Below are positions 1 through 24,132 of a DNA stretch of 24,132 nucleotides, one piece after another. The stretch spans positions 1 to 24,132 of the IMG/VR virus record IMGVR_UViG_3300009441_000445; one strand, 5' to 3'. The first letter of the stretch is position 1, and each line of letters opens with the position of its first letter. Made by a program: the position numbers and the translations under genes. The notes under the pieces were generated by a model, which worked only from the letters and a program-made list of their open reading frames with translations, was not told the origin of the DNA and made no database searches. The stretch comes from a virus.

Positions 1-159
1 AATAGTAGTTTTACCTAAGCCGGCACTACCACTAAGCAAGATATGCGGAATAGATCCACTATCAATCCAACCTTTAATCTGCTCTCGTTGACTCTCGTCA
101 CGGAACACATATCCGTCTATTGTTTTAGGACGATATTGTTCTACCCATAATTGCTTCAT
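1..159 (-). CDS. 44: Sliding-clamp loader ATPase, gp44-like (partial, N-terminal 53 residues)
   Basis: This is the first 53 codons of an AAA+ clamp-loader large subunit; the rest lies beyond the window's left edge. The N-terminus reads MKQLWVEQYRPKTIDGYVF, the clamp-loader 'W-x-E-x-YRP' opening, and a Walker A motif GSAGLGKT sits at residues 44-51. In T4-like phages gp44 with gp62 loads the gp45 clamp onto primer-template DNA at the replication fork. The ATG at 157-159 overlaps the TGA of the upstream aldolase gene in an ATGA arrangement, so translation is probably coupled. In T4 the gene just upstream of 44 is the clamp gene 45; here it is a metabolic gene. The identification is strong, although only the start is visible. 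Confidence 0.9.
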   Translation of the reverse strand, partial: MKQLWVEQYRPKTIDGYVFRDESQREQIKGWIDSGSIPHILLSGSAGLGKTTI

Positions 160-977
160 TCGCTTGCCTCTGTTATTTGTTTAATGTTATTGCTTATTAT
201 AGCATTAAACTCGTCCTCTGTCAAGTCATACTGTAGACTTTCTGATAACGCTCTGCTGAAGCTAGCACTTATATTATCGTTAAGACTAAGTTTGTTACAT
301 GCATGACTAGTAGTGTATCCGCCACTTAAAAATACAACCTTTTCTACATTACGCTTAGTAGTTAAGCTGTGATACAAGTTGGGGATTTCCGGAGGCGTTA
401 GTTTGAGAATAACTTTAAAGTCTTTACCGTTTAAGAACCATTCTAATTGCTCGTGCAGTTCTCGTTCGATCTCCGCCTTCTCAGGATGATCAATTGGAAC
501 TTCAGGTTCGATAATAGGCACTAGTCCGTACTCGCTGATTGTTTTTGCTAGTGTAAACTGCTGATTAAGAATGTCGTCAACCATGTCTACACTTTTAACA
601 ATACTACGCATCTTAGTACCATAGATCTGAGCACCAATAGATCCGTCTTCTGGAGTGCGTTTTGTTGCAAACTCTAACATTTGCTTTACTGGAAACTGTT
701 TGAGCATACCGTTTTCTTCACAGCCACTGTCAATTTTTAGAAACGATTCAATGCCCATGTCATCCAAGATGTTAACCATTCCACGTGTAACTGTGTCTTG
801 GTAGAGAATTGCTCCCCAGATGTTTTCATCGTTGAAGTCAGGTGAGTTGACCATTCGTAAACGCATTGCGTGTACTTTGTCCATCTTGTCTGCTTCTGTG
901 TATTCTTGTCCGTAGCGTTCTAATACGCCGCCTGTGCTTCCACCACTGTGATCCATTGCCGCAATAAATCTAGCCAT
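156..977 (-). CDS. Class I fructose-bisphosphate aldolase (bacterial FdaB type)
   Basis: The 273-residue protein should interconvert fructose-1,6-bisphosphate with glyceraldehyde-3-phosphate and dihydroxyacetone phosphate through a Schiff base. Visible family signatures, in order, are AAMDHSGGSTGG (6-17), GAILYQDT (55-62), a KID segment (81-83), GTKMRS (120-125), GLVPIIEPEV (151-160), VILKLT (189-194) with the expected Schiff-base lysine K192, LSGGYT (217-222) and ASFSRALSE (238-246). It is slightly shorter than the roughly 295 residues usual for bacterial homologues, but no core motif is missing, so it looks intact and active. A good AAGGAG ribosome site lies 7 bases before the ATG. It overlaps gene 44 by 4 bases. 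The likely role is carbon flow during infection (glycolysis, gluconeogenesis or feeding of the pentose phosphate pathway); that role is inference. Confidence 0.92.
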   Translation of the reverse strand: MARFIAAMDHSGGSTGGVLERYGQEYTEADKMDKVHAMRLRMVNSPDFNDENIWGAILYQDTVTRGMVNILDDMGIESFLKIDSGCEENGMLKQFPVKQMLEFATKRTPEDGSIGAQIYGTKMRSIVKSVDMVDDILNQQFTLAKTISEYGLVPIIEPEVPIDHPEKAEIERELHEQLEWFLNGKDFKVILKLTPPEIPNLYHSLTTKRNVEKVVFLSGGYTTSHACNKLSLNDNISASFSRALSESLQYDLTEDEFNAIISNNIKQITEASE

Positions 978-1155
978 TTAAGCTCTCCTTAATTATTTTG
1001 TCTATCTTATTAAACCATTCTGGCTCTGTCCGAGCAAGTATTTCGTCTACCACATCATCTAACTCTAATAGACTGCGTTTTTTATTCGTATGACTCGCCG
1101 GTTGCCCGGAAGAAGTTTTCACTCCAGAATGCTTTGTCGTCAATCCAGATGTCAT
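970..1155 (-). CDS. Possible small acidic protein with uncertain start
   Basis: An open frame of 61 codons ends 8 bases inside the aldolase start. Its C-terminal half is acidic and protein-like, with LLELDDVVDEILARTEPEW followed by FNKIDKIIKESLNG, and looks like a short amphipathic helical protein. The first roughly 25 codons lie inside the HAD-like gene in another frame and look unnatural (rich in Ser, Thr and Lys). The ATG at 1153-1155 has a GGGGAG 10 bases upstream, but those bases also encode part of the HAD protein. An in-frame GTG within 'DDVVDE' is an alternative start. A third possibility is frameshift fusion to the HAD protein across the A-rich tract after its stop. Function unknown. 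Confidence 0.38.
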   Translation of the reverse strand: MTSGLTTKHSGVKTSSGQPASHTNKKRSLLELDDVVDEILARTEPEWFNKIDKIIKESLNG

Positions 1156-1420
1156 AGTTTTCTTTCTCCCCTACACTTAGTTCGTGATGCTTTGCACCCC
1201 ATTCTACTAATTGGTTGTGTGTTAGTCTAAAATAGTCTACACCACTTACACAGCCACGGGCTGTCATATATTTAATTGTGTGTCCTGCTTCATATAATGC
1301 ATTTACTTTTGCAATACGCTCGGGCATTGGAATATGATTAGCGTAGTCTTTCTTTCCGCCACTGTCAGGAATAATTACTTCTTTACAGATAGTGCCGTCA
1401 ATGTCAATCACGTACTTCAA
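1082..1420 (-). CDS. HAD-like phosphatase, TTG start
   Basis: A 112-residue single-domain HAD-superfamily protein. Motif I is VIDIDGT (4-10), with nucleophile D6 and acid/base D8; motif II is the T of YMTARG (51-56); motif IV is IWIDDKAFW (91-99), with D94 and D95. Such short HAD proteins are common in T4-like marine phages and are thought to hydrolyse phosphoester bonds of sugars or nucleotides; the substrate cannot be read from the sequence. The start is TTG at 1418-1420: an in-frame TAA lies directly before it, no ATG is available, and a GGAG is 8 bases upstream. It overlaps the end of the upstream MazG-like gene by 17 bases, which fits coupled translation. The C-terminus lies within the overlap with the uncertain 61-codon frame. 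Confidence 0.82.
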   Translation of the reverse strand: MKYVIDIDGTICKEVIIPDSGGKKDYANHIPMPERIAKVNALYEAGHTIKYMTARGCVSGVDYFRLTHNQLVEWGAKHHELSVGEKENYDIWIDDKAFWSENFFRATGESYE

Positions 1421-1691
1421 TTAAATCACTCCAAATCTTTAGTTTATGGCGTTTTACATTTACTCTATCACCTAACTGTTCATTTGTTAAGATGCCATTT
1501 TCTACCATTAGTTCGATCATGCAAAGTACATCGCCTGCTTCTTCTAACAGTTTAGCACGTTGGTCTTCTTCGATTTGATCTGAGGTAGAATACTTACGAA
1601 CAATCTTTGAGCATCGTTGTGTAAGCTCTCCGCACTCTTCAGCAGTAATAATCATTAGTTGCTGTAATTTGTTTAACGGACTATTGTTCAC
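1404..1691 (-). CDS. MazG-like nucleotide pyrophosphohydrolase (first of two)
   Basis: A 95-residue, all-helical protein with the MazG/all-alpha NTP pyrophosphatase signature: E18-E19-x-x-E22 in 'AEECGEL' and E51-x-x-D54 in 'EEAGDVLC', the four acidic residues that bind magnesium. Members hydrolyse nucleoside triphosphates to monophosphates and pyrophosphate. Phage MazG proteins have been proposed to clean up unusual dNTPs or to affect the host alarmone pool; which applies here is unknown. It overlaps the preceding 59-codon gene by 11 bases and the following HAD gene by 17 bases, so the three form one tight operon. A second, distinct MazG-like gene lies at 3366-3725. Confidence 0.85.
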   Translation of the reverse strand: MNNSPLNKLQQLMIITAEECGELTQRCSKIVRKYSTSDQIEEDQRAKLLEEAGDVLCMIELMVENGILTNEQLGDRVNVKRHKLKIWSDLIEVRD

Positions 1692-1860
1692 TTTTTAAAT
1701 CCGATTCTTGCTTTTTACGACGGCCACCGTAGAAACTAGATTTAAATTCTAAGTTTTCAGTTCGGGCACCGGGTTCGCAATGGACAATTTCGCCACCATT
1801 GTCTAAAAATTCTTGTATTGCTGCATCAGTTAAGCCTTGCTCTTTTGGAATCGGGTTCAT
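1681..1860 (-). CDS. Small conserved-looking phage protein (59 aa)
   Basis: A short gene: MNPIPKEQGLTDAAIQEFL, then a 'GGEIVHCEPGAR' segment and a basic tail with GGRRKKQ. Its ATG (1858-1860) forms an ATGA overlap with the exonuclease stop, and its TAG overlaps the start of the MazG-like gene, so it exactly fills an otherwise empty gap in a tightly packed operon. This packing and the natural amino-acid composition are the case for it being real. The helix-like N-terminus and basic C-terminus would suit a nucleic-acid-binding or adaptor role, but no family was recognised and the function is unknown. Confidence 0.72.
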   Translation of the reverse strand: MNPIPKEQGLTDAAIQEFLDNGGEIVHCEPGARTENLEFKSSFYGGRRKKQESDLKSEQ

Positions 1861-2393
1861 CGTTTTAGTCCTAGTTCTTTATAAGCAATTTGAATTGCTT
1901 TAGATTGATAGTATGCATCTGCTAATGCATTGTGCAAATTATTTTGCATTGCTTTGCGTGGATCTTTTTGACAACAGCCAAAAAGTGTTCTCGAGTCGCG
2001 TATGATCCAAAAGTTCCACGGAATGTGCATTTCTGCCTTTCGAAACATATCTTCTAAAATTGTATAGTCGAAGCCATAACCTTGACCCCATAGTGTGTCA
2101 ACTCCAACAACCCATTTACTAATTTGCCGTAGTGCCTCTTCAACACTTACTGCGCCAGTTTGGTCAAAAGCCTCTTCCATAATAGCAGGGTCTTGTTTGC
2201 CCCACCATTCAATGGTACTATCACTAGCAGTCCGACCAAGTGCATCTTGTTCATCAATATTAATTTTAAGATACAACTCTGAGTGCGGTTCGCTATCATC
2301 TAGTGGGTTAAATTTAACTGCGCCTAATGATAGTACAGTTGCACTTGGACTAGTGTCAATAGTTTCTAAGTCAATTGTTCCGTGAGTTGCCAT
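1857..2393 (-). CDS. dexA: DnaQ-fold 3'-5' exonuclease (DexA / Rv2179c-like)
   Basis: A 178-residue DEDD exonuclease. The four metal ligands are recognisable: D8 and E10 in 'GTIDLET', D109 in 'WGQGYGFDYTIL', and D159 in 'HNALADAYYQ', with H154 placing it in the DEDDh class. The spacing and the 'TIEWWGKQ' and 'RDSRTLF' segments match the T4 DexA / Rv2179c-like family, which trims 3' ends of DNA or RNA. Likely roles are host DNA degradation, DNA end processing or RNA trimming; the exact substrate is not visible. The start ATG is 3 bases after the stop of the small gene upstream, and the end forms an ATGA overlap with the 59-codon gene. Confidence 0.85.
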   Translation of the reverse strand: MATHGTIDLETIDTSPSATVLSLGAVKFNPLDDSEPHSELYLKINIDEQDALGRTASDSTIEWWGKQDPAIMEEAFDQTGAVSVEEALRQISKWVVGVDTLWGQGYGFDYTILEDMFRKAEMHIPWNFWIIRDSRTLFGCCQKDPRKAMQNNLHNALADAYYQSKAIQIAYKELGLKR

Positions 2394-4504: not shown

Positions 4505-5038
4505 TTATCTCAAGAACTCTCTCCAGTCCAGGTCATACTGGATTGAATCAATTCTGTGTACTCCTATTAAGTATAGCACATAACTTGCTACACTACTACC
4601 TCTTCCTACTCCCCAAACAATATTATTTTCTCGCATAAAATCTACAAGATAAATCATATACCGTAATAAGTCGTGCATACCACGTGCTTCGTATTCTCGT
4701 AGTTCTTCCCATATACGTTCTTGATGGGGTATTTCCTCGCAGGGTATTTCGGCTTTGCTTAATACATACTTGTATACATTGATATCTTTATATTCATCAG
4801 GCATAAACCATTCGGACTGTAGCGCATGGTCAAAGTCTGTTTGATCTACATCTAATGCAATATATTGTTTAAGTTCAGGTAAGTATTGCTCACGCATTGC
4901 TTCATTAAATTTGTCTACATCATCATTAGGATCACATAGTACAACATGACACTTATCAACATGACCGCTATAGATCATGTCAACTAAGTCTTTATTACTA
5001 AATCGTGGAATACCGAGGTTATCTGTTTTCATAAGCAT
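4505..5038 (-). CDS. Stand-alone DNA polymerase III alpha-like palm fragment
   Basis: A 177-residue protein whose last 70 residues (about 108-177) align by eye with the N-terminal palm of bacterial C-family polymerases. It has an 'RIWEELREYEARGMHDLLRY' helix, 'FMRENNIVWGVGRGSSVASY' (GRGSS at 145-149, matching the GRGSAAGS dNTP-phosphate-binding motif of Pol III alpha), and 'LYLIGVHRID' then 'YDLDWREFLR' (matching 'YLLGITDIDPLRYDLLFERFL'). It stops exactly where the family continues into the loop carrying the catalytic PD-x-D aspartates, and the bases after the TAA do not resume that sequence. The first 105 residues are not recognised; there is no clear PHP domain. It cannot be a polymerase alone. 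ATG at 5036 and 5030 are both possible; neither has a good ribosome site. Confidence 0.72.
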   Translation of the reverse strand: MLMKTDNLGIPRFSNKDLVDMIYSGHVDKCHVVLCDPNDDVDKFNEAMREQYLPELKQYIALDVDQTDFDHALQSEWFMPDEYKDINVYKYVLSKAEIPCEEIPHQERIWEELREYEARGMHDLLRYMIYLVDFMRENNIVWGVGRGSSVASYVLYLIGVHRIDSIQYDLDWREFLR

Positions 5039-11205: not shown

Positions 11206-14200
11206 TTAACCAATAAGCACTTCAACTATGCCACGTTCGCTATCCGTCTTTTCTGTTATTGCTTTGCCTATAATAGTTCCGTATTTTGGATTATTATCTA
11301 CACATGCATATCCTGCTATTGCACTAGTAACTATAATATCACCTTTGCTTACTGCACCAACTACATTACACGGAACTCGTCCTGATAATGCAATACCTGT
11401 TACAAAGTCACCTTCTAAATCGCTGTTCATTAAGTGTGCTGGATTAGTAGTAACTACACCTGCAACTCTATGATCACCTTTAGTATTAGTAACTGTTACT
11501 TCTGCGCTGCCGCCTAGTACAAGTACTGTGCCTGGAATATACAAACCATCGCCTAAATAGTTTTCAGCTAAGTCAGCATATTTTGCAGTTGTAGAAGTGC
11601 CGCTGAATGTAGTACCATAAACAGTATTCCACTTACGACTATTAGAACCTAAGTTTCGAGTGTTGTTGCCATCAGGTATAATGTTTGTATCAACACTACC
11701 ATTCATTGATATTTTATCTGCAGAAGCATTACCTAAATCAACACTTCCATTAACAGTTAAGTTTCCGCCAGCAATAATATTACTATTAGCACTAATTGCT
11801 CCAGCACTACTAATTGTAACACCTGTGCTGCCGTAGCCTCCACCAAATGTTGCACTAGATGATACAACAAGATTTGACGAAGTACTAATTGCTCCACCTA
11901 CATTTAATGTGCCAGTGGTACCTGATCCAATTGTAGTATTACCAGTGCTGCCTGATACTAAGAATTTTGTAACAGGTGTTCCTGCACTATTTTTAATAGT
12001 AAAGTTATTTGCAGCATTAATAGTAACATCGCCTGTAAAGTCACCTGCTAGTGCTTGAAAGTTTACACTAGACCGTACTAAATTACTACTAACTAGTAAT
12101 CTTTCAACGCCGCCTGTTATTGTGTTAACTGTATCACTTGCCGAACCACTATATCCAGTTCCTGCACCTATACTAATACCAGTACTACTAGCGCCTTTTT
12201 CAGTAAGTGCTTCAATAAAGTTAGTATACACCCAACGTGCTGCTAGTGCCGACTTACCTTGGATAGTTGCGTTACCTGTTCCAGTTCCTGCTGCTGTTGC
12301 TGTAAATACAGTACCTACAGTATTATTTGCTGCACCAATTGTAGTAAAGTTAGTTGACCCTGCTACATTAATCTTATATTGTTGTCCTGCAATAATGTTA
12401 CCAGCAGTTGTAGTTGTACCTTCGCCATAAATACTAGCTGTTTGAGAGTTGCTCGGGTCTGCTGATGTACTTCCTATATCACCTACAACAATTTTGCCGC
12501 CCATTAACGAAGTTGGTCTATTATTACCTGATGCAGTAAGAATAACGCCACCGTTTGGTGTTGTAAAGCTAAGTGTGTTATCTGATTCGTCTAATACTAC
12601 ATTAGTAGATGATCCGCCTAATATGAAACTATCAGCTTGTAATGATCCTGAATCAGTTCTTCTTGCAATACTGTTGTTAGCACTACCGATACTAATTGGT
12701 GTAGTACCGTATATTCCATCATCTTGTCTAACAAGCACACTACCTGTTAAGTTTTCTGCTGTATTTACAGATGTCACTGTGCCAATAGCACCACTTATAT
12801 TACCTGCAACTGCACCGTTTGAAAAGTTAGCTGCTGCGCCATTGCCTGTATTAGTAATATTAATAACGTACATACTAGTTTCATTAAATACTGAGCCTTG
12901 TACAGTTCCGGATATATTACCTTGTGTAATAGTTTCGCCATTGCCTACAGTTATACCAGTACCAAAGTTTAATTTGTTTCCTGATAAGACTACAATGTCA
13001 CTAAGTTCAAAGTCATGATCTTCTAAACCTTCACCTTGTTTAACAATTTGATCAAAAGTAATTGCACTAGCATCGCCGGTGCCTGTTACTGATCTACCTA
13101 TTACAGTATCAGTGGGTATTTGCGCTAGTTTGTCAAATCCAACACTACGTTCTTTTAGTCCTATGTAACCACTACTAAGTACCGCTGTTACTGTTCTACT
13201 AGTATTTGTTGCAGCTTGTTCGACACCGTTAGTATACACTGCTTTAGTAATTATTGTACCGCTAGATACCCAGGTGTCAGTTGTTTTAATAACAATTAAT
13301 GTATTAGCTGTAGCTTGTACTGCCACTACACCTCTATTAGTACCTTGGTATAATATATCACCTACACTAACAGTAAGGCCACCGGATAGTGTTAAGCGTA
13401 ATTCTTCAGTGAAGTTGTTATCGTCAAATACACTAAGTCCTCTAAAACTTTGTCCAACACTATCGCCATTGCCGTATAACCCTGAACTAGTATCTTTAGT
13501 TGATGCTCTGTTCATTAATAGTTTAGTTTGAGCAATACTTGCTGTTGACGAAATTTCAGTATTTGTTACAACACCACTGCGTAGCTGTATATCAATTTCT
13601 GCTATTGCATTAGCACCGCTAGAATCTAGTACGCCGTCATTTCTTGTTAGCGTAATATTAACGTCACTAGCACTACTATTACTTGTGTTGCCTATTTCAT
13701 CAAATGGTCCTCTAAGAACAAACGAAGTAACATCTGACTTACCAGCATCACCTTTAATAGCTTCTTCAGCAAAGTCATTAACTGATGTTAAATTATAAGT
13801 TATAATCCAAACTGAATTACCTGGTTCATTTTCACCTACAATATCGTCTGTTGTTTGTACTATGTCTTTAACGACGCCAGTAACAGCACCGGAATTGTTC
13901 TTAATAATGTCACCAACTACATACGTGTCTGTTCCACTTCCGTCTGCCGGTACTGCAATTATTACTTTTCTGTAACCTGTATATGCAACAAAGTCGCCTG
14001 CTGCCTGATCGTTCTTTGATGTTTCTCTTAATACATCAAAATTATCAGTAGCAAGTACTTTAGTATCAACATATGATTTGTTAGTTGCGTCATCACCGTT
14101 ATCTGGATTGTCAAGGTTTTGTATCTTGTTCCCGCCGAGGTCTAAATCGCCTTCCATTGCCGGTGTGCCATTTAGTGGTAAAAATCCTGATACTGATCCT

Positions 14201-17200
14201 AACCCTGCTATAGTTGCGTTATTTTTATCTCTACCTAAACGTTTGTTTACATATTGAACAATAGCTTTTTCAACTGGCACTGCACTATCTGATTCATCAA
14301 CCATGTTATCATCAATCGAAAACTCATCAACAACAACGCCTTTCTTAAATCCAAATCCGTTAGCATTTGTAATTTCAAGTTCGCCTGAGAAGCTAATTGA
14401 ACCCTGCGCCTGGTCTACAGCAAAGAACTGTCCAACACGGAAGAATCCGTATTGGTCTGTACTCATCCAAAACACACGACCTTTACGTCTTTCCCAAACT
14501 TGTGACGACTCGGCCGATTCACTATCTGTGTAAAAAGGCGCAAGTGATTTTTCAGCAGCACCTAAGATAACATTTGGATAGTTCGAATCGTTAAACGAAC
14601 CAGTACCAATTTGTGTAAAGTCGTGCCCTGTTGCACGACATAGTGATATAGCAACTGTAATTTCAGCAGTTGCATCTACTTGTAGACCTGCATATAATGT
14701 ACGATCTTCGGTAAATCCAGCAGCTAATCCTGTGCCACCTGTTGCTGTAATGTCAGACATTGGAATAGCATCAATTGTTATTGAACCTGCACCTGCACCT
14801 GCATCAACAGTGTCCATAATCTGATGTGTTCTACCAGCATACGCAAATGTCATGCCGCCTGCGTAACCTGTTATTGCAATACCACTTGGTATTGTTGCTA
14901 CACCTGATTCAATTGCATCTGTAACAATATCCATAAGTGTTACGGCAGTAGTAGCAGTGCCTGATTCAGTAGTTCCACCAGTAGTATCTTGTGTATATCC
15001 GTTACCATTAGTAGCAGTCCATGCAGACTTTGTTAAGATATATTGTGTTACTATCTCTTTTGCTTTATCTTGTGCTGCAACAGTTTCAGCTTGTTGTGCA
15101 ACTGGAAGATATGAAACTGTTCCTACATAATATTTGTTTGCATTTTGGACAGAATTAGCATTGCCGCCGTATTTCAAATCGTTTGCAACTCCACGAACAA
15201 TTAGTCCAACATCTCTGTAGCACTTTCTTTGGTCGTATACAAATCCTGGGTATGTTGTATTCAACCATGCAATTACCTCTTCTTGTACAAATCTTACGTT
15301 ATTAGCAATTAAGTTATGTGCGTTAGGATTTGATGTTGCACCTGGCTGATTACCGTAAATATCTCTAGTAAGTCTTGTAAAGTCAGCAGCTTCAAGATTC
15401 TTTGAAGTAACGTCTGTGCTCACTGCAATAGTAGTATCGCCTACAGCAGTACCGTTGCCGCTGCCTGCGTTAGCAAAATCTACAGGTATTTCAATATGAT
15501 CGTATTCTAAGTTAAATGTAGTTTGTACTTGTGTATCTGATAATTCAGTACCAAAGTTATCACTGCCTGAGAACGATGTTGATCTATAAGTTATAAGATC
15601 ACTTTCATCAAAGTTAACAGCAGTACTAGGACGTTCTACGATAGTTTCTTTACTTCTAACTTTATCAAATATGTGTGTCGATCCTGCTCTATATTCAATA
15701 ACTGCACCATTTGCTATAGTAACTTGTACTGTACTAAACAAGTCGCCGTTTTCGCCAGCTGGCTTGCCTTGAAGTTGCAGTCTATAAACTAAGTCATTAT
15801 ATACGCCACCTGTTGGAGCACTTATTCCATTTGGCAATGTTGCTAATGATACAGAACCAATTCTATATCGCAGTACACCAGTAGCTCCACCATGGTCAAC
15901 TTGTACTAATGAGTTAGGCGCAGGTGGATATTTAATATCAGTAATAACTAAACTACTTTCGCCAGCTGCGTTTGTATCAGTAGAGCCGTCAGTGTAAGTA
16001 AACACTTTAGCCGGCATTGTCATGTCAGTTGCGTATGTTACTTGATCTGGAATTTCGTTTGGATCTGCACCTTCAGCAACTAAACCAAAGTTACCGTATC
16101 CATTAGACCCGTTTAGTGATCTAATTTCCGAACCGTTCTTAGCATAATATGCTGCATGGCAATAATATGTAAACATACTAACCATCTCAGAGAATGCACC
16201 GTTATTAGTAACAAGACCGTAGCCTAAATCGTTAATTTGTGTAAAGTCGTTTCCAAGCATACTTCTGTTACCAGCAGTCTGGATATACACAGTTCTAGAT
16301 ATTTGTCCAGGACGTTCAGTAAACTCAGCTTCATTAAACCCGGCACCATCATTTGATGTTGGATCTAAGTGAATTTTACACCAGCCATTAGCACGACTAT
16401 ACCGACTAATTGCGTTAACTTGATATCGTCTGCCTTCTATGTAGAACGGCGCAGGTAGTTGCGGTTCACGTAAGAACAAACCAGTTCCTTCTTCAGACTG
16501 TACCCATAATTCGTAAGCATTAGTTTTACCAGATTCTATATCTGATGCGTCACCTTCTCCTACTGGATCAATTGTTGTTGGAATATACATTGGCAAGTTA
16601 CCTGCATATGCATCAACAAACATGCCGCCGCCAAATATCTTTTGATTGCCTTTAGATTTAGAAAAACTAGAACCAGTTTGAACGTATGGAGATTTGGTTA
16701 AGATTTGACCTTCTGGATCAAGTACTAACAAGAAGCCGCCGTGGCCTTGTACAGTTATGTTACGTAAAATAGTTGCATCATTCATCATGAATACATCCAT
16801 TTCATCGTTGCGCCTTGGTGGGTTGTAATCTCTATTAAACGCAAATATCATTTTATTTACTAAGTTACCAACTATGCCAGTAGTACCAGCTTCAGCTACA
16901 CCATACTTACCGTCAAACTCCTGGTAACCTGCATCAGCAGCATTTTGCCATTCGTCTGCAAGAGTGTATGCACCTGTAAATACTCTAGTAGCAATAGTTT
17001 CAACATATTGTATTGCTTTTCTAGTAACATTTTCTTGTCCACTAAATCCACCACTGTTATACTGCTGAATATAGCTTTCAAAATATTCACCTTGAACTTC
17101 TGTTGCAAACTCATCTCCGCCTGCAACTAAATCATCTACTAGTGCGTCAACAATTAGACCAACATCTCTTTTACACTTATCTTGATTATATGTAAACAAT

Positions 17201-20200
17201 GTTACGTCATTAGCATCTAAGTGTGCTAGTGTAGCAGAGTTCATTGTAGAAACGTTACCGTCAATACTTGATTTTGCTGCTATTAAGTTTGCATCACTTA
17301 TGTCTGCTAAACTTGGCGGAACTTTTGTTCCTATGTTCAATAAGTTATTGTTATTAATTTGAGTAAAAATTAAGTTTACTTTTGAATTAACAACTCCAAC
17401 TTCAACAGACGATGCTGCTGTTCCTGATGTATCTTGTACTTGTGTGTTTCCTGTTGTTCTAGTAATAGCAGTTTCAAGTAACACTTTTTCCATAACAGTT
17501 TTGATATGTGTTAGTGTAGTTAATGTTTCTTGTCTTGTATTAATTTCAAACTTTAGTGTACCTTGTGTAAATAGGTCTGTTGCAAATTCATGACTACCAA
17601 CGTTGCCGCCATAAAACGCATCGTGAGTAACAGCATCGACAAAGTTTCTAAAGTCTGTTAAACGCACTGCTTCGTTTAGATATTTTTGCGGAGTAAGTGA
17701 CTTTAAGTATGCAAGTGCTTCTTGCGCAATAAACTCTTTGTTTGCTTGTAGTTGACTTTTTGCATTAGTAAGTCCAGCAGTTACGCCTGTGTGAGCAGTA
17801 AATGTAATTGGAAATACTGCGCCAGTATCAGTGTTTACAACGCCTGTACTAATAATAGTTATAATTGCGTCAAACCCGGCATCGGCTCGTGTGCCAACCC
17901 CTGGAAGAGCTGCTACTAACCCTTTAACGTGTGTTAACGCTTCTACCCAGATAGCTTTTAGTTTTGCATCTAAATATATGCTTTTTGATCTTTGGAATTT
18001 TAAACCTTGTAAAACTTGATTGTATGTTGTACCTAATGTAAAGTCATACGTTAATCCAGAAAGTATTTCTTCCATGTCTGCCTGGAATGCAACTTTATCA
18101 TATAGTAGATCATCAACATTTGTATTAATGTAGCTAATGATTTCTTCTTGTATAAACTTTTTATTTTCTTTAAGAGATGCAGCGGCACTACTATAACCGC
18201 CTGCGTTAGTAACTGAAACACCGGTATTCTGTGTCTTCTCAGGATTTGCTAGATAGTGGTATCCAAAGTGTCCTTGCCAACCGCCTGTTTGATTATAAAA
18301 ACGTGTACCTGCTGTAGAAACAGTCATACCGTCAAAATCATTATCTCTGTAAAAATATGTGTCAGCCCATCTAGACTGTGATACTCTGCGTTTTGGACGA
18401 ATAATTACTCGTCTAAATTCGTCACCTTTGATCGATACGTTTGCTGCAACTTTAATAGGATAGTCTTCTTCATAAAATCCTGACTCGACAAAAATTGTAA
18501 CTTGCTTTGACTTAACAAAGTTGCCATATTCTAAATCTTCGTTAGCAATGAAATCAATCGGCTTTAGTAGTTCTATTTCTGCTACATCAAAGTCTCCGCT
18601 AACATCTGGATTGTTTGCTGCATTACTTGCAAAGTAATTTACAACTCTACCTTGTGCTTTAGATATTTTACCAACTAGTACTTTGCCAGGAATGATGTCT
18701 TTGTTATTTGCAACAGCTTGATCAGTTGATAAATTACCTTCACCTGGATCAATTTTTACCAGGTACGTACGACCAGCGTTTATAACTGCGCCAGCAGTAA
18801 TGCCATCTTGTATAATCTCGCTGATTAAATTAAATTTTTCAGTAACACCGGAAATTGCAAGTGCTGCTGCGTCATTGCCTATATCAAAGCTTTGTTTGTT
18901 ATCAGTTTGATAAACAACACCTATAGTTCCGCCTGTTGTATATTCAGTAAATCCAACAGTACTAACAGCAGTAGTTAATGCTTCGTCAATAAACAATTCA
19001 AATGTGTTTGCAGATATAACTTTAGCATAATAAAATTGGTTGTTAACTTCGACCATGCCGTTAGCATTTTTAAATACTACAATATTTTTATCAACTAATC
19101 CATGCGACAATGTTGTTGTTACTAATGGAATTGCAGCTTGGGTAATACTAGTAACTGGTGTTTGTAAATATGTTCTATTTAAAAGTATAGATCCAATTAT
19201 ATCTCTTGCAGTTTCAATTGAGTCAATTGTTTCTACTACTTGGCGCTTAATTGCAATACGTCCGCTTGCATTTGAATAGTAACGCTCTGCTGCTTTTCTA
19301 GTTAAACCGTTTGCATTGTTTAATACAGTACTTGGACTTAGATTAATATCAAATGCAATTGCATCCATAATCAATCCTAAATCACGTTCACATGTAGCAA
19401 TATTATAGTCAAAGTCTGGGTATGTAAATTTTAAATATGCTGATATTTCTCTAGCAACATAATCTTTGTTTAATTCTATTAAATTTCTTGCTTGTGCAAA
19501 TTGTGGTCCAAGGCCGCCGTTATTAGAAATTGCTGTGCTTGCAACTTTAGCTGGTGATGCGCCGTCATCAATAGTAATAGTTTGAAAATACGGACCTGGC
19601 TCAGCTTCTGCTGCTTGCATCATTTCAGCTGCACGAGCTGCTGCGGCATTAATACTACTATAAGCATAATTGTAAGACGTACCTTCTTTGCCAGACGGAA
19701 CGCCACGCATTGTGTCGTCGCCTTGTGAACTAACAAATAAGTTGTCTTTTGCCGAATATGAAGTGTTGTCTACATAAAACTTTGTAGCTGCTTGTAGGTC
19801 TTCTTTGTTGTTTGTAAGACCAGTTAATTCTCCAGGACTATCATGAAGTATTAATGCACCTTCCATTGTATCGCCTTGGCGTCTTACAACACTCTTACGT
19901 GGCATTGCTTCGTCTGCCAGGAAGAATCCTTCTAGAGCTGAATCGTATGCTGTGTCGACTAGGGTATGTGCATCATCGCCGGAAATAATAGCAGTAACAA
20001 ATACCTTATTAGTGTTGGCATCATTTTGACTTTGAACAACTGCTTGCTCTTTAGTAGCATGTAAACTTAGCTGGTTTGCATTAAAATATCTTAGGTAATA
20101 TGTTTGACCGTTTGTTAGTGCCGGGGGCACAGTATCTTCAGCATTAAACAGATATGGTGTGCCGTTGATTGTTCTGTCAAATCCGTGACTGTTAACTACA

Positions 20201-20832
20201 GCGTTACCAGATGCATAACTTGCAATAGTTAGAGTATATTCAGATGCATCAGCTGGCTCGTCGCTAACACGTAATGGCAAGTCTCCCGCAACATATCTAC
20301 TATCAGCATATCCTTTAGTAATAACAAGATCGTCAATAGTAATGTTATCAATACCAACGCCGCCGTGTACTTCATTAAACCCTGTTACTGCATTTTCAGA
20401 AACAGCATTACCACTCAATGCAATACTGCGTATTTGGGCAACTTCTGCACCATCAGGCGATCTACCATCTAGTGGACCACCAAGTCTTGGAGTACTATCT
20501 TGCGATAACTCTCTAAACGCTGTAGAAAGAATAATCTTTCCGCCGATATCATAGTTTATTAATATACTATCAGTAGCTCCGCCGTTTGCAATATCACTTG
20601 CAAATGTTACTAAGTCCATTGCCGTTGCTGAATCATTAACAAATGGTACTGTACGTGGTACTAAAAATTCGTTAGAAACATCACCTAGTGTAGTAAAATC
20701 AATTGACCCGCCAGCGCCAAATATTGCATATATTTCTTTAAAGTTTTCATTTACTTTACGAAACGATTCGCGAATACTATCGCCGGTGCCGTCATTGCCT
20801 TCTACACCAATATCAACTTCTTGCTTTGCCAT
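11206..20832 (-). CDS. Giant tail-fibre / adhesin protein (3208 aa)
   Basis: One uninterrupted frame of 9.6 kb. The N-terminus has the docking segment 'GNDGTGDSIRESFRKVNENF'. About residues 450-1930 contain five imperfect copies of a helical module (listed separately) between beta-rich stretches. 'VTIFVESGFYEEDYPIKVAA' (about 773) and 'NDATILRNITVQGHGGF' (about 1345) look like coils of a right-handed beta-helix, as in pectate-lyase-type fibres. From about 2500 on the protein is Thr/Ser/Asn-rich shaft. The end, from about 3055 ('NLGSNSRKWNTVYGTTFSG', 'YADLAENYLGDG', 'HRVAGVVTTNPAHLMN'), resembles C-terminal domains of phage fibres that assist trimerisation, sometimes with self-cleavage (Peptidase_G2/S74-like); this is inference. 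GGAGCATAAC precedes the ATG, inside the end of the Fe-S carrier gene. It is probably the main receptor-binding or whisker-like fibre. Confidence 0.82.
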   Translation of the reverse strand: MAKQEVDIGVEGNDGTGDSIRESFRKVNENFKEIYAIFGAGGSIDFTTLGDVSNEFLVPRTVPFVNDSATAMDLVTFASDIANGGATDSILINYDIGGKIILSTAFRELSQDSTPRLGGPLDGRSPDGAEVAQIRSIALSGNAVSENAVTGFNEVHGGVGIDNITIDDLVITKGYADSRYVAGDLPLRVSDEPADASEYTLTIASYASGNAVVNSHGFDRTINGTPYLFNAEDTVPPALTNGQTYYLRYFNANQLSLHATKEQAVVQSQNDANTNKVFVTAIISGDDAHTLVDTAYDSALEGFFLADEAMPRKSVVRRQGDTMEGALILHDSPGELTGLTNNKEDLQAATKFYVDNTSYSAKDNLFVSSQGDDTMRGVPSGKEGTSYNYAYSSINAAAARAAEMMQAAEAEPGPYFQTITIDDGASPAKVASTAISNNGGLGPQFAQARNLIELNKDYVAREISAYLKFTYPDFDYNIATCERDLGLIMDAIAFDINLSPSTVLNNANGLTRKAAERYYSNASGRIAIKRQVVETIDSIETARDIIGSILLNRTYLQTPVTSITQAAIPLVTTTLSHGLVDKNIVVFKNANGMVEVNNQFYYAKVISANTFELFIDEALTTAVSTVGFTEYTTGGTIGVVYQTDNKQSFDIGNDAAALAISGVTEKFNLISEIIQDGITAGAVINAGRTYLVKIDPGEGNLSTDQAVANNKDIIPGKVLVGKISKAQGRVVNYFASNAANNPDVSGDFDVAEIELLKPIDFIANEDLEYGNFVKSKQVTIFVESGFYEEDYPIKVAANVSIKGDEFRRVIIRPKRRVSQSRWADTYFYRDNDFDGMTVSTAGTRFYNQTGGWQGHFGYHYLANPEKTQNTGVSVTNAGGYSSAAASLKENKKFIQEEIISYINTNVDDLLYDKVAFQADMEEILSGLTYDFTLGTTYNQVLQGLKFQRSKSIYLDAKLKAIWVEALTHVKGLVAALPGVGTRADAGFDAIITIISTGVVNTDTGAVFPITFTAHTGVTAGLTNAKSQLQANKEFIAQEALAYLKSLTPQKYLNEAVRLTDFRNFVDAVTHDAFYGGNVGSHEFATDLFTQGTLKFEINTRQETLTTLTHIKTVMEKVLLETAITRTTGNTQVQDTSGTAASSVEVGVVNSKVNLIFTQINNNNLLNIGTKVPPSLADISDANLIAAKSSIDGNVSTMNSATLAHLDANDVTLFTYNQDKCKRDVGLIVDALVDDLVAGGDEFATEVQGEYFESYIQQYNSGGFSGQENVTRKAIQYVETIATRVFTGAYTLADEWQNAADAGYQEFDGKYGVAEAGTTGIVGNLVNKMIFAFNRDYNPPRRNDEMDVFMMNDATILRNITVQGHGGFLLVLDPEGQILTKSPYVQTGSSFSKSKGNQKIFGGGMFVDAYAGNLPMYIPTTIDPVGEGDASDIESGKTNAYELWVQSEEGTGLFLREPQLPAPFYIEGRRYQVNAISRYSRANGWCKIHLDPTSNDGAGFNEAEFTERPGQISRTVYIQTAGNRSMLGNDFTQINDLGYGLVTNNGAFSEMVSMFTYYCHAAYYAKNGSEIRSLNGSNGYGNFGLVAEGADPNEIPDQVTYATDMTMPAKVFTYTDGSTDTNAAGESSLVITDIKYPPAPNSLVQVDHGGATGVLRYRIGSVSLATLPNGISAPTGGVYNDLVYRLQLQGKPAGENGDLFSTVQVTIANGAVIEYRAGSTHIFDKVRSKETIVERPSTAVNFDESDLITYRSTSFSGSDNFGTELSDTQVQTTFNLEYDHIEIPVDFANAGSGNGTAVGDTTIAVSTDVTSKNLEAADFTRLTRDIYGNQPGATSNPNAHNLIANNVRFVQEEVIAWLNTTYPGFVYDQRKCYRDVGLIVRGVANDLKYGGNANSVQNANKYYVGTVSYLPVAQQAETVAAQDKAKEIVTQYILTKSAWTATNGNGYTQDTTGGTTESGTATTAVTLMDIVTDAIESGVATIPSGIAITGYAGGMTFAYAGRTHQIMDTVDAGAGAGSITIDAIPMSDITATGGTGLAAGFTEDRTLYAGLQVDATAEITVAISLCRATGHDFTQIGTGSFNDSNYPNVILGAAEKSLAPFYTDSESAESSQVWERRKGRVFWMSTDQYGFFRVGQFFAVDQAQGSISFSGELEITNANGFGFKKGVVVDEFSIDDNMVDESDSAVPVEKAIVQYVNKRLGRDKNNATIAGLGSVSGFLPLNGTPAMEGDLDLGGNKIQNLDNPDNGDDATNKSYVDTKVLATDNFDVLRETSKNDQAAGDFVAYTGYRKVIIAVPADGSGTDTYVVGDIIKNNSGAVTGVVKDIVQTTDDIVGENEPGNSVWIITYNLTSVNDFAEEAIKGDAGKSDVTSFVLRGPFDEIGNTSNSSASDVNITLTRNDGVLDSSGANAIAEIDIQLRSGVVTNTEISSTASIAQTKLLMNRASTKDTSSGLYGNGDSVGQSFRGLSVFDDNNFTEELRLTLSGGLTVSVGDILYQGTNRGVVAVQATANTLIVIKTTDTWVSSGTIITKAVYTNGVEQAATNTSRTVTAVLSSGYIGLKERSVGFDKLAQIPTDTVIGRSVTGTGDASAITFDQIVKQGEGLEDHDFELSDIVVLSGNKLNFGTGITVGNGETITQGNISGTVQGSVFNETSMYVINITNTGNGAAANFSNGAVAGNISGAIGTVTSVNTAENLTGSVLVRQDDGIYGTTPISIGSANNSIARRTDSGSLQADSFILGGSSTNVVLDESDNTLSFTTPNGGVILTASGNNRPTSLMGGKIVVGDIGSTSADPSNSQTASIYGEGTTTTAGNIIAGQQYKINVAGSTNFTTIGAANNTVGTVFTATAAGTGTGNATIQGKSALAARWVYTNFIEALTEKGASSTGISIGAGTGYSGSASDTVNTITGGVERLLVSSNLVRSSVNFQALAGDFTGDVTINAANNFTIKNSAGTPVTKFLVSGSTGNTTIGSGTTGTLNVGGAISTSSNLVVSSSATFGGGYGSTGVTISSAGAISANSNIIAGGNLTVNGSVDLGNASADKISMNGSVDTNIIPDGNNTRNLGSNSRKWNTVYGTTFSGTSTTAKYADLAENYLGDGLYIPGTVLVLGGSAEVTVTNTKGDHRVAGVVTTNPAHLMNSDLEGDFVTGIALSGRVPCNVVGAVSKGDIIVTSAIAGYACVDNNPKYGTIIGKAITEKTDSERGIVEVLIG
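15124..15306 (-). repeat. Giant-fibre helical module, copy 5
   Basis: Encodes 'NVRFVQEEVIAWLNTTYPGF' followed by 'CYRDVGLIVRGVANDLKYGG' and 'NANKYY'. Closest to copies 1 and 4. The pattern is N-x-x-F-(I/V)-x-x-E-x-x-(A/S)-(Y/W)-(L/I), then C-x-RD-(V/L)-GLI, then D-(L/I). Confidence 0.72.
17080..17195 (-). repeat. Giant-fibre helical module, copy 4
   Basis: Encodes 'YNQDKCKRDVGLIVDALVDD' followed by 'LVAGGDEFATEVQGEYF'. The first helix of the module is degenerate; the C-K-RDVGLIVDA core is nearly identical to copy 5. Confidence 0.72.
17572..17752 (-). repeat. Giant-fibre helical module, copy 3
   Basis: Encodes 'NKEFIAQEALAYLKSLTPQK' and 'TDFRNFVDAVTHDAFYGGN', then 'HEFATDLF'. The cysteine is lost; the DAVxxD-x-x-x-GG core is kept. 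Confidence 0.65.
17980..18172 (-). repeat. Giant-fibre helical module, copy 2
   Basis: Encodes 'NKKFIQEEIISYINTNVDDL' and 'ADMEEILSGLTYDFTLGTTY'. The most divergent copy; the C-x-RD core is replaced but the length and helix spacing are kept. Confidence 0.58.
19269..19482 (-). repeat. Giant-fibre helical module, copy 1
   Basis: Encodes 'NKDYVAREISAYLKFTYPDF' and 'CERDLGLIMDAIAFDINLSP', ending 'AAERYYSN'. Aligns well with copy 5 over about 60 residues. Confidence 0.7.
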
Positions 20833-20835
20833 CTG

Positions 20836-21222
20836 TTATGCTCCAGTTATTTCTGTATATTGTGGGTTTTCATCTTGTATCTTCGCCACATCAAAGTTTA
20901 CGCTTACACCACAGCCGCATGCTGATTGTGCGTTGGGATTATTAACTTGAAAAGTTGCACCCATTATGTCTTTGACATAATCTATTTCTGTACCTATCAT
21001 GAACATTACTGCTGTTGAACCAACTACAAATTTACCTGTGTTTGAGTCAATGACTACAGAGTTATCCTCTAAATCAGCTTCTGTTGCTACAGTAGCCCAA
21101 TCGTATTCAAATCCTGCACAGCCGCCGCCTTTTAAGTTAAGACTGACTGCATAACTGTCGTTTTCTTGACATATACTATCAATTTGTGCTTTTGCGGTGT
21201 CTGTTAGTGTAACTATGTTCAT
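20836..21222 (-). CDS. HesB/IscA/ErpA-type iron-sulfur cluster carrier
   Basis: A 128-residue A-type carrier. The three cluster-ligand cysteines are present: C35 in 'GGGCAGF' and C102 and C104 in 'SACGCGVSVNF' (compare SxCGCGxSF). The 'YVKDIMGATFQVNNPNA' segment is also diagnostic of the family. Such proteins hold an iron-sulfur cluster or iron and pass it to client proteins. The family occurs in other marine T4-like phages. It starts behind a GATAAATA late promoter and an AAGGA ribosome site, and its last codons carry the ribosome site of the giant fibre gene, so it is expressed with the tail fibre. This context suggests a role in virion (fibre) metal loading or late Fe-S repair; that is inference. 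Confidence 0.9.
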   Translation of the reverse strand: MNIVTLTDTAKAQIDSICQENDSYAVSLNLKGGGCAGFEYDWATVATEADLEDNSVVIDSNTGKFVVGSTAVMFMIGTEIDYVKDIMGATFQVNNPNAQSACGCGVSVNFDVAKIQDENPQYTEITGA

Positions 21223-22084: not shown

Positions 22085-22355
22085 TTCCCTTTAGTTGCTC
22101 AATTGCAGCTTCACAGCGAGTAAGCTTTCGTTCTAGGACGGTTATAGCTGCTCGCTGTTTTCTTGACTGATCTTCTAAACTCTGCACATAACGCTGTGTG
22201 GGTATCTTTTGCACATAGCCGTCTTCACCTAGCATTTCAAAATGATCAGCACCTTGTGCTTTTAATCCACCACTAACACGATTTGGATTCTTATCCTGTG
22301 ACGAGTTCTCTGCTGGAGTAGTCCTGCCGTACATTTTTGCTAGATAGTTGCTCAT
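22068..22355 (-). CDS. Coiled-coil small protein (95 aa) with its own late promoter
   Basis: The start is taken as the ATG at 22353-22355 (MSNYLAKMYGRTTPAENS...) because AAAGGA lies just upstream; a longer frame has no such site. Residues 1-50 are polar and probably flexible; 'DGYVQKIPTQRYVQSLEDQS' and 'RKQRAAITVLERKLTRCEAA' with 'IEQLKGTIS' form a likely coiled coil. It overlaps the 3' end of uvsE by 65 bases in another frame. A perfect T4 late octamer TATAAATA lies 18 bases before the ATG, inside uvsE. A late-expressed virion or assembly protein is suggested by this. No family was recognised. Confidence 0.75.
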   Translation of the reverse strand: MSNYLAKMYGRTTPAENSSQDKNPNRVSGGLKAQGADHFEMLGEDGYVQKIPTQRYVQSLEDQSRKQRAAITVLERKLTRCEAAIEQLKGTISRS

Positions 22356-23379
22356 TGTCTTTTCCTTTATAATATTTATACAAGTCGATACTTGCAAGGT
22401 TCTTCATCTTACTCTCACACATAATATCTGTATGTGGTAAAAAACTTAATGCCCAATCGTTTGCAATCTTGTTAGGATACCATTCACTGTGTCCACGTAA
22501 TTTGCCTTTCTTGTAGCCTGCTTCTAATAACGCAACCATATCAGGTAATGTATCGTGTGCATAGCCTTCGGGCAATTCTTCTGTTCTACTATAGCTGTAA
22601 TGTATTGCAGGACGCACACCACGCCAGCTATCAATTACACGCTTAAATCTATCGTCAGTGGGTTGAATGTATTCTTTTTCTCTGCACCAGTGATGGTGTA
22701 TGTCGAGTACAAGTGCGCAGTGGTCGACAAGCTCGAGGCTGTGTTCGATGCCCCACTTGTTTTCGTCGTTTTCAATGGTAATACAGTTTCGTGCCTCTGG
22801 AGACAATCGCTGAATTGCACTAATGATACCGGCTGGACCTTGACGTCCTGAGATGTGGACGTTACACTTGAAGTCTTGCCAAGTCTTGCCGTAGCCCATC
22901 CACCTAATGAGATCCGTATGATACTCAAATTCCTCTATGCTCCTGTCAACAATATCTGGATTATCTGACGCAAGCACAGTAAACTGACCAGGATGCATAC
23001 TAAGCCGAACATCCAAGGAACGAGCAAGTGTACCGACCCTAGCAAGGTGCGTTGCGCAGTAATTACGTACATCAGGTAGCTGCCAAAAATAAGCCCAGGT
23101 AGTATGGGTGTAAACAGGAAGACAATCGCTACCCAGTCGTACCATTCTAAGTTCATTTGGTAGTCCTCCTACATATTCAATCAAGTTGTAATACGATTGA
23201 ATGTTGTGTTCCATAATATCCCAAAGCCGCTGCTCTGCTACTTCAGTAGTTTGACGGTTAAGCCACTGTACTGTTGTACTGCGAGTATTTAGTGGACGCT
23301 GAATCTCTTCAAGAACTTTTTTCTTTTGCGTTTGATCTGGATGCATGTACTTGCATGCAAAGCCTATACGTTCTACCAT
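22291..23379 (-). CDS. uvsE: UV-damage endonuclease UvsE/UvdE-like
   Basis: A 362-residue TIM-barrel repair enzyme that nicks DNA 5' of UV photoproducts. Family features visible: 'ERIGFACK' (3-10); 'LRMVRLGSDCLP' (77-88); 'RLSMHPGQFTVL' (125-136) with H129; 'CNVHISGRQGP' (172-182) with H175; 'CITIENDENKWG' (199-210) with E203; 'LVLDIHHHWC' (223-232) with D226 and the HHH; 'AIHYSYSR' (258-265) with H260; 'LRGHSEWYPNK' (294-304) with H297; and 'DIMCESKMKNLA' (318-329) with E322 and K324. These are the likely metal ligands and active-site lysine, so the enzyme looks intact. Its last about 30 residues run past the core and overlap the next gene. A GGAAG is 9 bases before the ATG. A sigma70-type promoter lies about 115 bases upstream. 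Confidence 0.93.
   Translation of the reverse strand: MVERIGFACKYMHPDQTQKKKVLEEIQRPLNTRSTTVQWLNRQTTEVAEQRLWDIMEHNIQSYYNLIEYVGGLPNELRMVRLGSDCLPVYTHTTWAYFWQLPDVRNYCATHLARVGTLARSLDVRLSMHPGQFTVLASDNPDIVDRSIEEFEYHTDLIRWMGYGKTWQDFKCNVHISGRQGPAGIISAIQRLSPEARNCITIENDENKWGIEHSLELVDHCALVLDIHHHWCREKEYIQPTDDRFKRVIDSWRGVRPAIHYSYSRTEELPEGYAHDTLPDMVALLEAGYKKGKLRGHSEWYPNKIANDWALSFLPHTDIMCESKMKNLASIDLYKYYKGKDNEQLSSKNVRQDYSSRELVTG
22373..22380 (-). promoter_or_regulatory. Perfect T4-type late promoter inside uvsE
   Basis: The minus strand reads TATAAATA, exact match to the T4 late consensus, 18 bases before the ATG of the 95-residue gene and within the coding region of uvsE. It would let the small gene be read late, separately from uvsE. 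Confidence 0.68.
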
Positions 23380-23522
23380 ATTCTATAACTTCCGTCTAGT
23401 TCGTGTGTGCCTGAATTATAAATTGCCCATGCTATACAGTTGTACCATGCATAGTGTGGATTCTGCCTTAGTTGCTTGTACCATTGTTTAAATAGTATAA
23501 CACGTTTCTTAAACCTTGTCAA
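23373..23522 (-). CDS. Possible Trp-rich small protein (49 aa), TTG start
   Basis: Between the reductase and uvsE genes an open frame encodes 'TRFKKRVILFKQWYKQLRQN', then 'PHYAWYNCIAWAIYNSGTHE' and a 'LDGSYRIW' end. The composition (Trp, Tyr, basic residues) is protein-like and the stop TAG overlaps the uvsE ATG (ATGGTAG), as other junctions here do. The only good start in frame is TTG at 23520-23522, which overlaps the reductase stop and the -35 of a strong promoter; the ribosome site is weak. Real gene, remnant or chance are all possible. No family recognised. Confidence 0.42.
   Translation of the reverse strand: MTRFKKRVILFKQWYKQLRQNPHYAWYNCIAWAIYNSGTHELDGSYRIW
23494..23522 (-). promoter_or_regulatory. 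Strong sigma70-type promoter upstream of uvsE
   Basis: The minus strand carries a perfect -35 TTGACA (23517-23522), a 17-base spacer and a -10 TATACT (23494-23499, one mismatch). Transcription should begin near 23487 and read the uvsE region. The -35 overlaps the stop of the reductase gene. This is the best host-type promoter in the window, consistent with early expression of the UV-repair gene by host RNA polymerase. Confidence 0.72.
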
Positions 23523-24132
23523 CCTACAAACGCCCGCTCTTGCACAAATGTACCTTGTGTCTTTTTATTACCTTCACAAAATCCTAATGTACTAAAATGT
23601 TCTTTTAGGTCATTGTTAAATCCTATACTACCGCATAACATCACACGTTGGAAAGATGGATCGTTAATCTTAACAGTGCCATCCTCCATGAATATTTGAA
23701 TACGTCCTTTTAGTTCAGCATCTTCTTGTGTCACTGTACTGATGTATTCAATAGGCATTTCGTTTAAAAAGTCTCTATAACAATCCTGCTCAGCATTTAA
23801 TCTAGTTGTCCATGTCACTGTTATGTTTTCAAACAAGTCATATGTTTCGGGATCACGTAGCAAACTAATAAACGGTGCAATACCTGTGCCACTTGCCATC
23901 ATTACTAAATGACCACCTAGTTCTAAGTTAGCAAGCAATAATGTACCAGTTGGCTTCTCTCCTACTTCTAGCATATCGCCTACTTTAATATGCTGTAGTT
24001 TACTCGTAAGTGGTCCATCTGGCACTTTGATACTGTAAAATTCAATCCAGTCATCATACGGACCACTTGATATACTGTATGCTCTCATTATAGGTTTGTT
24101 CTTTTGTAGTTTTTCTGACCAGTTGTCTAACC
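23519..24132 (-). CDS. Ferredoxin/flavodoxin-NADP+ reductase, bacterial Fpr type (5' partial)
   Basis: The 5' end runs off the right edge: the frame stays open to 24132 (adding 'LDNWSEKLQKNKPI' before MRAYS), and family members need this upstream part. Motifs visible: RAYSISSGPYDDWIEFYSIK (FAD-binding RxYS; the E-F-Y-S-I-K segment typical of Fpr), 'VPDGPLTSKLQHIKVGD', 'PTGTLLL', the NADP-binding 'MASGTGIAPFISLLRDPETY', 'TWTTR', 'MLCGSIGFNNDLKEHF' (CGS-x-x-F/M near the C-terminus), and the closing 'GTFVQERAFVG' (compare YVIERAFV). The enzyme moves electrons between NADPH and ferredoxin or flavodoxin. About the N-terminal 50 residues are missing from the window, not the genome. The stop overlaps a sigma70 promoter. 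Confidence 0.9.
   Translation of the reverse strand, partial: LDNWSEKLQKNKPIMRAYSISSGPYDDWIEFYSIKVPDGPLTSKLQHIKVGDMLEVGEKPTGTLLLANLELGGHLVMMASGTGIAPFISLLRDPETYDLFENITVTWTTRLNAEQDCYRDFLNEMPIEYISTVTQEDAELKGRIQIFMEDGTVKINDPSFQRVMLCGSIGFNNDLKEHFSTLGFCEGNKKTQGTFVQERAFVG

Follow-up and report, generated by a model that had tools for sequence, protein, structure and literature searches.

An intact aldolase gene in a viral contig

The window, by which we mean the whole stretch of 24,132 nt that was analysed, carries a gene for a central carbon enzyme overlapping a gene for a replication protein. This raised the question of what such an enzyme would do for a phage, and whether the two genes belong together.

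156–977, minus strand: class I fructose-bisphosphate aldolase, FdaB type, 273 aa, with Schiff-base lysine K192 (reading frame, profiles and fold)
1–159, minus strand: N-terminal part of a gp44-type clamp loader, cut by the contig end (PHROG match)

The aldolase reading frame (977 to 156) starts with ATG and runs uninterrupted for 273 aa. AGGAG, which resembles a ribosome-binding site, lies a few bases 5' of the ATG. When IMG/VR was scanned with the protein, 81 relatives came up, and those in the 80 other viral contigs were 53–84% identical. Judged by these relatives, the frame is a genuine gene and not a chance frame. A profile scan of IMG/VR gave 223 relatives, of which the best 80 were examined. 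In PHROGs, by contrast, no family matched the aldolase.

The best NCBIfam match was NF003784/PRK05377, fructose bisphosphate aldolase (E 2e-69). The score of 234.2 bits was below the equivalog cut-off of 392 bits, which is a curation threshold and not a mechanistic trait. The protein was therefore filed as a divergent class I FdaB-type relative, not as a strict PRK05377 equivalog. It also matched Pfam PF00274 (Glycolytic) above the family cut-off (E 1.5e-6).

The AlphaFold2 model (pLDDT 93.9) predicted the class I TIM-barrel fold. In Foldseek its top match was 2IQT of Porphyromonas gingivalis, the closest solved protein (TMq 0.91, E 4.8e-24, 38% identity), followed by eukaryotic aldolases. Eight residues, D9, K81, K122, R124, E157, K192, S218 and R242, were invariant in all the 75–81 sequences that covered them, and the same eight aligned to 2IQT. 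We take their roles from knowledge of the family: a Schiff-base Lys, acid/base Asp, Glu and Lys, and phosphate-binding Ser and Arg.

The dN/dS values among the relatives were 0.04–0.32, with a median of 0.15 (2267 pairs). Together with the predicted fold and the invariant catalytic residues, these values indicated a working, selected enzyme. An earlier note on this DNA had claimed an intact class I aldolase of the FdaB type, and this held by reading frame, family profiles, fold and catalytic residues. Its claim that the core motifs were present, K192 included, was equally borne out, each being where the note had placed it. The surroundings of the gene are viral (gp44, an exonuclease and other phage genes). 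By this setting and the purifying selection, the aldolase gene is an auxiliary metabolic gene of phages.

The junction with gene 44

The 53-aa open frame after the aldolase gene matched the T4-type clamp loader phrog_168 (E 6.6e-17). The aldolase TGA (156–158) and the gp44 ATG (157–159) share a 4-base ATGA, in agreement with the 4-base overlap reported earlier. Such an overlap would permit translational coupling from the aldolase to gp44.

On the other hand, the earlier suggestion that expression of the aldolase is tied to replication genes found no conserved tie. The gp44 gene adjoined the aldolase in 7 of the 80 aldolase loci, the aldolase was present in 3 of the 80 nearest gp44 loci, and gp44 had a promoter match of its own. 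Because of these two counts we regard the pairing as incidental. Other phages with the pair, for which a search had been proposed, do exist in these loci, but the pair is uncommon.

196–224, minus strand: sigma-70-type promoter-like site, TTGACA-17-TATAAT, 12/12, TG-extended (consensus match only)

This site lies within the 3' end of the aldolase gene, 36 nt before gp44, and is a putative promoter of gp44, a consensus match not being proof. Matches of at least 10/12 occurred at this place in 44 of the 80 aldolase loci, with varied genes downstream. At nearly equal distance, a 12/12 match also preceded gp44 in the gp44 locus L253, where the gene upstream is unrelated. TTG encoded Leu252 in 29 of 30 aldolase sequences, against a background of 20%. 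Selection for a promoter inside the aldolase gene was considered and found unsupported, as nine other codon columns outranked Leu252.

1857–2393, minus strand: exonuclease (phrog_255), the conserved border of a variable slot before gp44 (PHROG match and comparison of gp44 loci)
1404–1691, minus strand: MazG-like NTP pyrophosphohydrolase, 95 aa, an accessory gene in the aldolase slot (profile matches)

The recurrent order in the gp44 loci was GroES-like, MazG-like, exonuclease and gp44. The interval between exonuclease and gp44 held either nothing recognisable or differing cargo, the aldolase included. Since its content differed between loci, the aldolase sits in a variable accessory slot of a conserved replication block.

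A variable slot, and an adjacency that differs between phages, would also be expected of a passenger or degraded gene without function. The active site was intact in all relatives, however, and purifying selection at the dN/dS given above speaks strongly against this reading, which we consider extremely unlikely.

A HAD-type partner gene

1082–1420, minus strand: capless HAD-superfamily phosphatase-like protein, 112 aa, the usual aldolase partner in relatives (motifs and reciprocal scan)

In 48 of 75 loci a HAD gene preceded the aldolase by no more than 400 nt. In the reciprocal scan, which sampled the 80 closest HAD relatives, the aldolase was found in 67 of the 68 loci having at least 800 nt downstream. 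The HAD and aldolase genes shared a strand in every case, and these loci fell into 39 separate clusters at 95% nucleotide identity. On these counts it is the HAD gene, in contrast to gp44, that is the conserved partner of the aldolase.

More distant HAD homologues (<60% identity) were present in 269 cultured-phage records, although no credible phage aldolase was found in the cultured-phage collection. This suggested that the HAD protein has roles without the aldolase, a point against the reading preferred below. The sole aldolase matches in that collection were two 'Staphylococcus phage' records, OR844989.1 and OR849896.1 (282,636 and 6,353 bases), with an unannotated FdaB at 41% identity. These are best read as host DNA, which is unproven.

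The HAD motifs were present: DxDGT as motif I, Thr as motif II, Lys as motif III and DD as motif IV, the conserved residues being D6, D8, T53, K77/K86 and D94-D95. The gene matched PHROG 1238, which is named 'phosphoheptose isomerase'. This name does not fit a protein with HAD motifs and no isomerase motifs.

The protein resembled small phosphatases of the EcbF/BcbF type, below the cut-off of that family (13.1 vs 162 bits for capsule phosphatase TIGR01689). It also matched a 'Capsule biosynthesis protein' chain of PDB 9iqw (E 5.5e-10; 1.2e-16 by profile). Foldseek with the low-confidence HAD model (pLDDT 68.8) gave no informative match. Two cyanophages carried HAD homologues in heptose/nucleotide-sugar clusters, in one case adjoining a class II aldolase/adducin gene.

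Origin and phage lineage

A tree was built from 39 phage and 43 bacterial aldolases. The two sets formed separate groups with full SH-aLRT support, and the branches between them summed to about 2 substitutions per site. By this tree the sampled phage aldolases are one fully supported phage-only clade. Identity to bacterial FdaB was 38–45%, the best being about 43% among the bacterial matches listed. The earlier note had hoped to find the donor lineage by phylogeny, and with it a clue to the host. The split was so clean and the branch so long that no donor could be named from these data, and the aldolase tree gave no host.

The phage lineage was approached through other genes. The gp44 of a close relative (L004) was nearest to those of PA5oct-type Pseudomonas, Agrobacterium and Sinorhizobium jumbo phages. 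In the 299,910-base record that carries another aldolase relative (L067), the gp23 capsid gene was closest to those of Sinorhizobium phage Phosso, Vibrio phage 2.275.O and PA5oct. These nearest relatives make an uncultured T4-related phage of the jumbo type the probable source of the window.

Proposed role of the aldolase

Our preferred reading, to which we give a probability of roughly 0.55, is that the gene encodes a functional class I fructose-1,6-bisphosphate aldolase of uncultured T4-related, probably jumbo, phages, usually with the HAD protein as a cassette, making fructose-1,6-bisphosphate toward nucleotides. The aldolase would condense dihydroxyacetone phosphate (DHAP) with glyceraldehyde-3-phosphate to fructose-1,6-bisphosphate. 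The HAD protein and/or a host FBPase would convert this to fructose-6-phosphate. The carbon would then pass through the non-oxidative pentose phosphate pathway to ribose-5-phosphate, PRPP and nucleotides.

Aldolase reactions are reversible, and sequence cannot tell their direction. The earlier note had the enzyme shifting host carbon toward or away from the pentose phosphate pathway for dNTP synthesis. Feeding of that pathway is plausible, with many nucleotide-metabolism genes among the neighbours; the direction of flux we infer, as we do the aldolase activity, the HAD substrate and the benefit to dNTP supply.

Within 8 kb of the aldolase, relatives carried genes for PRPP synthetase (5 loci), thymidylate synthase (ThyA), DHFR, GTP cyclohydrolase I and phosphoribosyltransferases. 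Of the 39 aldolase-bearing records, 13 encoded ribonucleotide reductase. Transaldolase (PF00923) was absent from these 39 records and GlpX-type FBPase from 29 aldolase-bearing records; all were fragments, so that both absences are weak evidence.

Sugar-nucleotide genes were less frequent neighbours. KdsA/KdsB-like genes followed the aldolase in three loci (L001, L002 and L006), and a nucleotidyltransferase/mannose-6-P isomerase fusion lay beside it in nine. That some relatives' aldolases adjoin such genes is a point against a role in nucleotide supply. Instead of nucleotides, the aldolase/HAD pair might be concerned with heptose, KDO or some other sugar, making or consuming DHAP-derived sugar phosphates in the chemistry of sugar nucleotides, surfaces or DNA modification. 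The KdsA-KdsB-like genes, the weak match of the HAD protein to the EcbF/BcbF group, its match to 9iqw and the cyanophage clusters are all consistent with this. Most relatives lacked such neighbours, however, and genes for exonuclease, gp44, phosphoribosyltransferase, PRPP synthetase, DHFR and ThyA were at least as frequent. We consider this alternative unlikely.

Some FBP aldolases also take sedoheptulose-1,7-bisphosphate (SBP). The phage enzyme may thus join erythrose-4-P and DHAP, with the HAD protein dephosphorylating SBP, in a transaldolase-independent pentose phosphate route. The link of HAD to aldolase would suit this substrate, as would the missing transaldolase, but the latter was sought in fragments and sequence does not reveal substrate preference. 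We find this quite improbable.

Aldolases are glycolytic in many bacteria, and with a reversible reaction host fructose-1,6-bisphosphate could be cleaved while infection proceeds, to yield ATP and NADH. Among the neighbours examined, nucleotide genes dominated and none was recognised as belonging to lower glycolysis, and a bisphosphatase partner, if the HAD protein is one, would oppose glycolysis. Such a use therefore seemed very unlikely.

The preferred reading, synthesis of fructose-1,6-bisphosphate toward nucleotides, may be extended. The aldolase and a HAD bisphosphatase could form a phage-specific module, an irreversible, transaldolase-free shunt from triose to pentose phosphate, moving as a mobile cassette among replication and nucleotide loci with a built-in promoter for the next gene. 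We regard this extension as doubtful.

Relation to known systems

The phage aldolase shares its fold (TMq 0.91) and catalytic residues with bacterial FdaB (PRK05377/NF003784; 2IQT), and both have the motifs DxSGGS, GTKMRS, EPE, LKxT, LSGGY and SFSRAL. On the other hand, the phage protein lacks about 14 N-terminal residues as well as short internal inserts, and forms a separate clade.

Among the auxiliary genes of carbon metabolism listed for ocean viromes is a virus-encoded fba (Hurwitz 2013, PMC4053976, citing Sharon 2011), and ALDO is given as an auxiliary gene in trench viruses (PMC12448302). The passages listing them gave no HAD pairing, gp44 context or phage lineage. The earlier note had said that its reading would be refuted if the gene proved common and had been reported before at this place. 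Half of this applies: the gene is widespread, and viral fba was reported (PMC4053976), but no description in this position was found. Our literature search found no paper on class I aldolase in jumbo phages. What was known before is virus-encoded fba; what this analysis adds is the phage-only class I clade, the HAD partner and the slot.

Cyanophage transaldolase TalC would likewise supply fructose-6-P and pentose phosphates for dNTPs, according to PMC4053976. TalC belongs to another enzyme family (PF00923) than the phage aldolase and was in none of the 39 aldolase-bearing records. The partner HAD was 44–49% identical to two cyanophage members of PHROG 1238. It differs from PHROG 1238 and EcbF/BcbF-like capless HAD proteins by its pairing here with an FBP aldolase.

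These results suggest that an uncultured phage lineage keeps a central carbon enzyme of its own. Phage takeover of carbon metabolism would then reach beyond cyanophage transaldolase and oxidative pentose phosphate genes. With the aldolase–HAD link, what had been a vague 'auxiliary gene' becomes a two-step pathway open to testing, and the phage 'phosphoheptose isomerase' family gains a candidate reaction.

Other genes in the window and in relatives

The other window genes recorded here are all on the minus strand. A tail/fibre-like protein of 3208 aa (11206–20832) takes up 40% of the contig. The stand-alone 177-aa protein at 4505–5038 matched the 171-position DNA polymerase family phrog_11127, whereas its matches to longer DNA polymerase families covered no more than a short part of them. 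A UvdE-type UV damage endonuclease is encoded at 22291–23379 (PF03851, E 2.2e-38), and 23519–24130, truncated by the contig end, encodes a protein with an oxidoreductase NAD-binding domain. The gene at 20836–21222 encodes an iron-sulphur cluster biosynthesis protein (PF01521, E 1e-15); in one relative (L046) a protein resembling it (cluster 79) stands directly before PRPP synthetase.

Several relatives had a ferredoxin gene near gp44. In the record of L012 (G004), the match to the large subunit of ribonucleotide reductase (C1:7533–8882) was broken into three parts in one frame, separated by short gaps, within an open frame of 557 aa.
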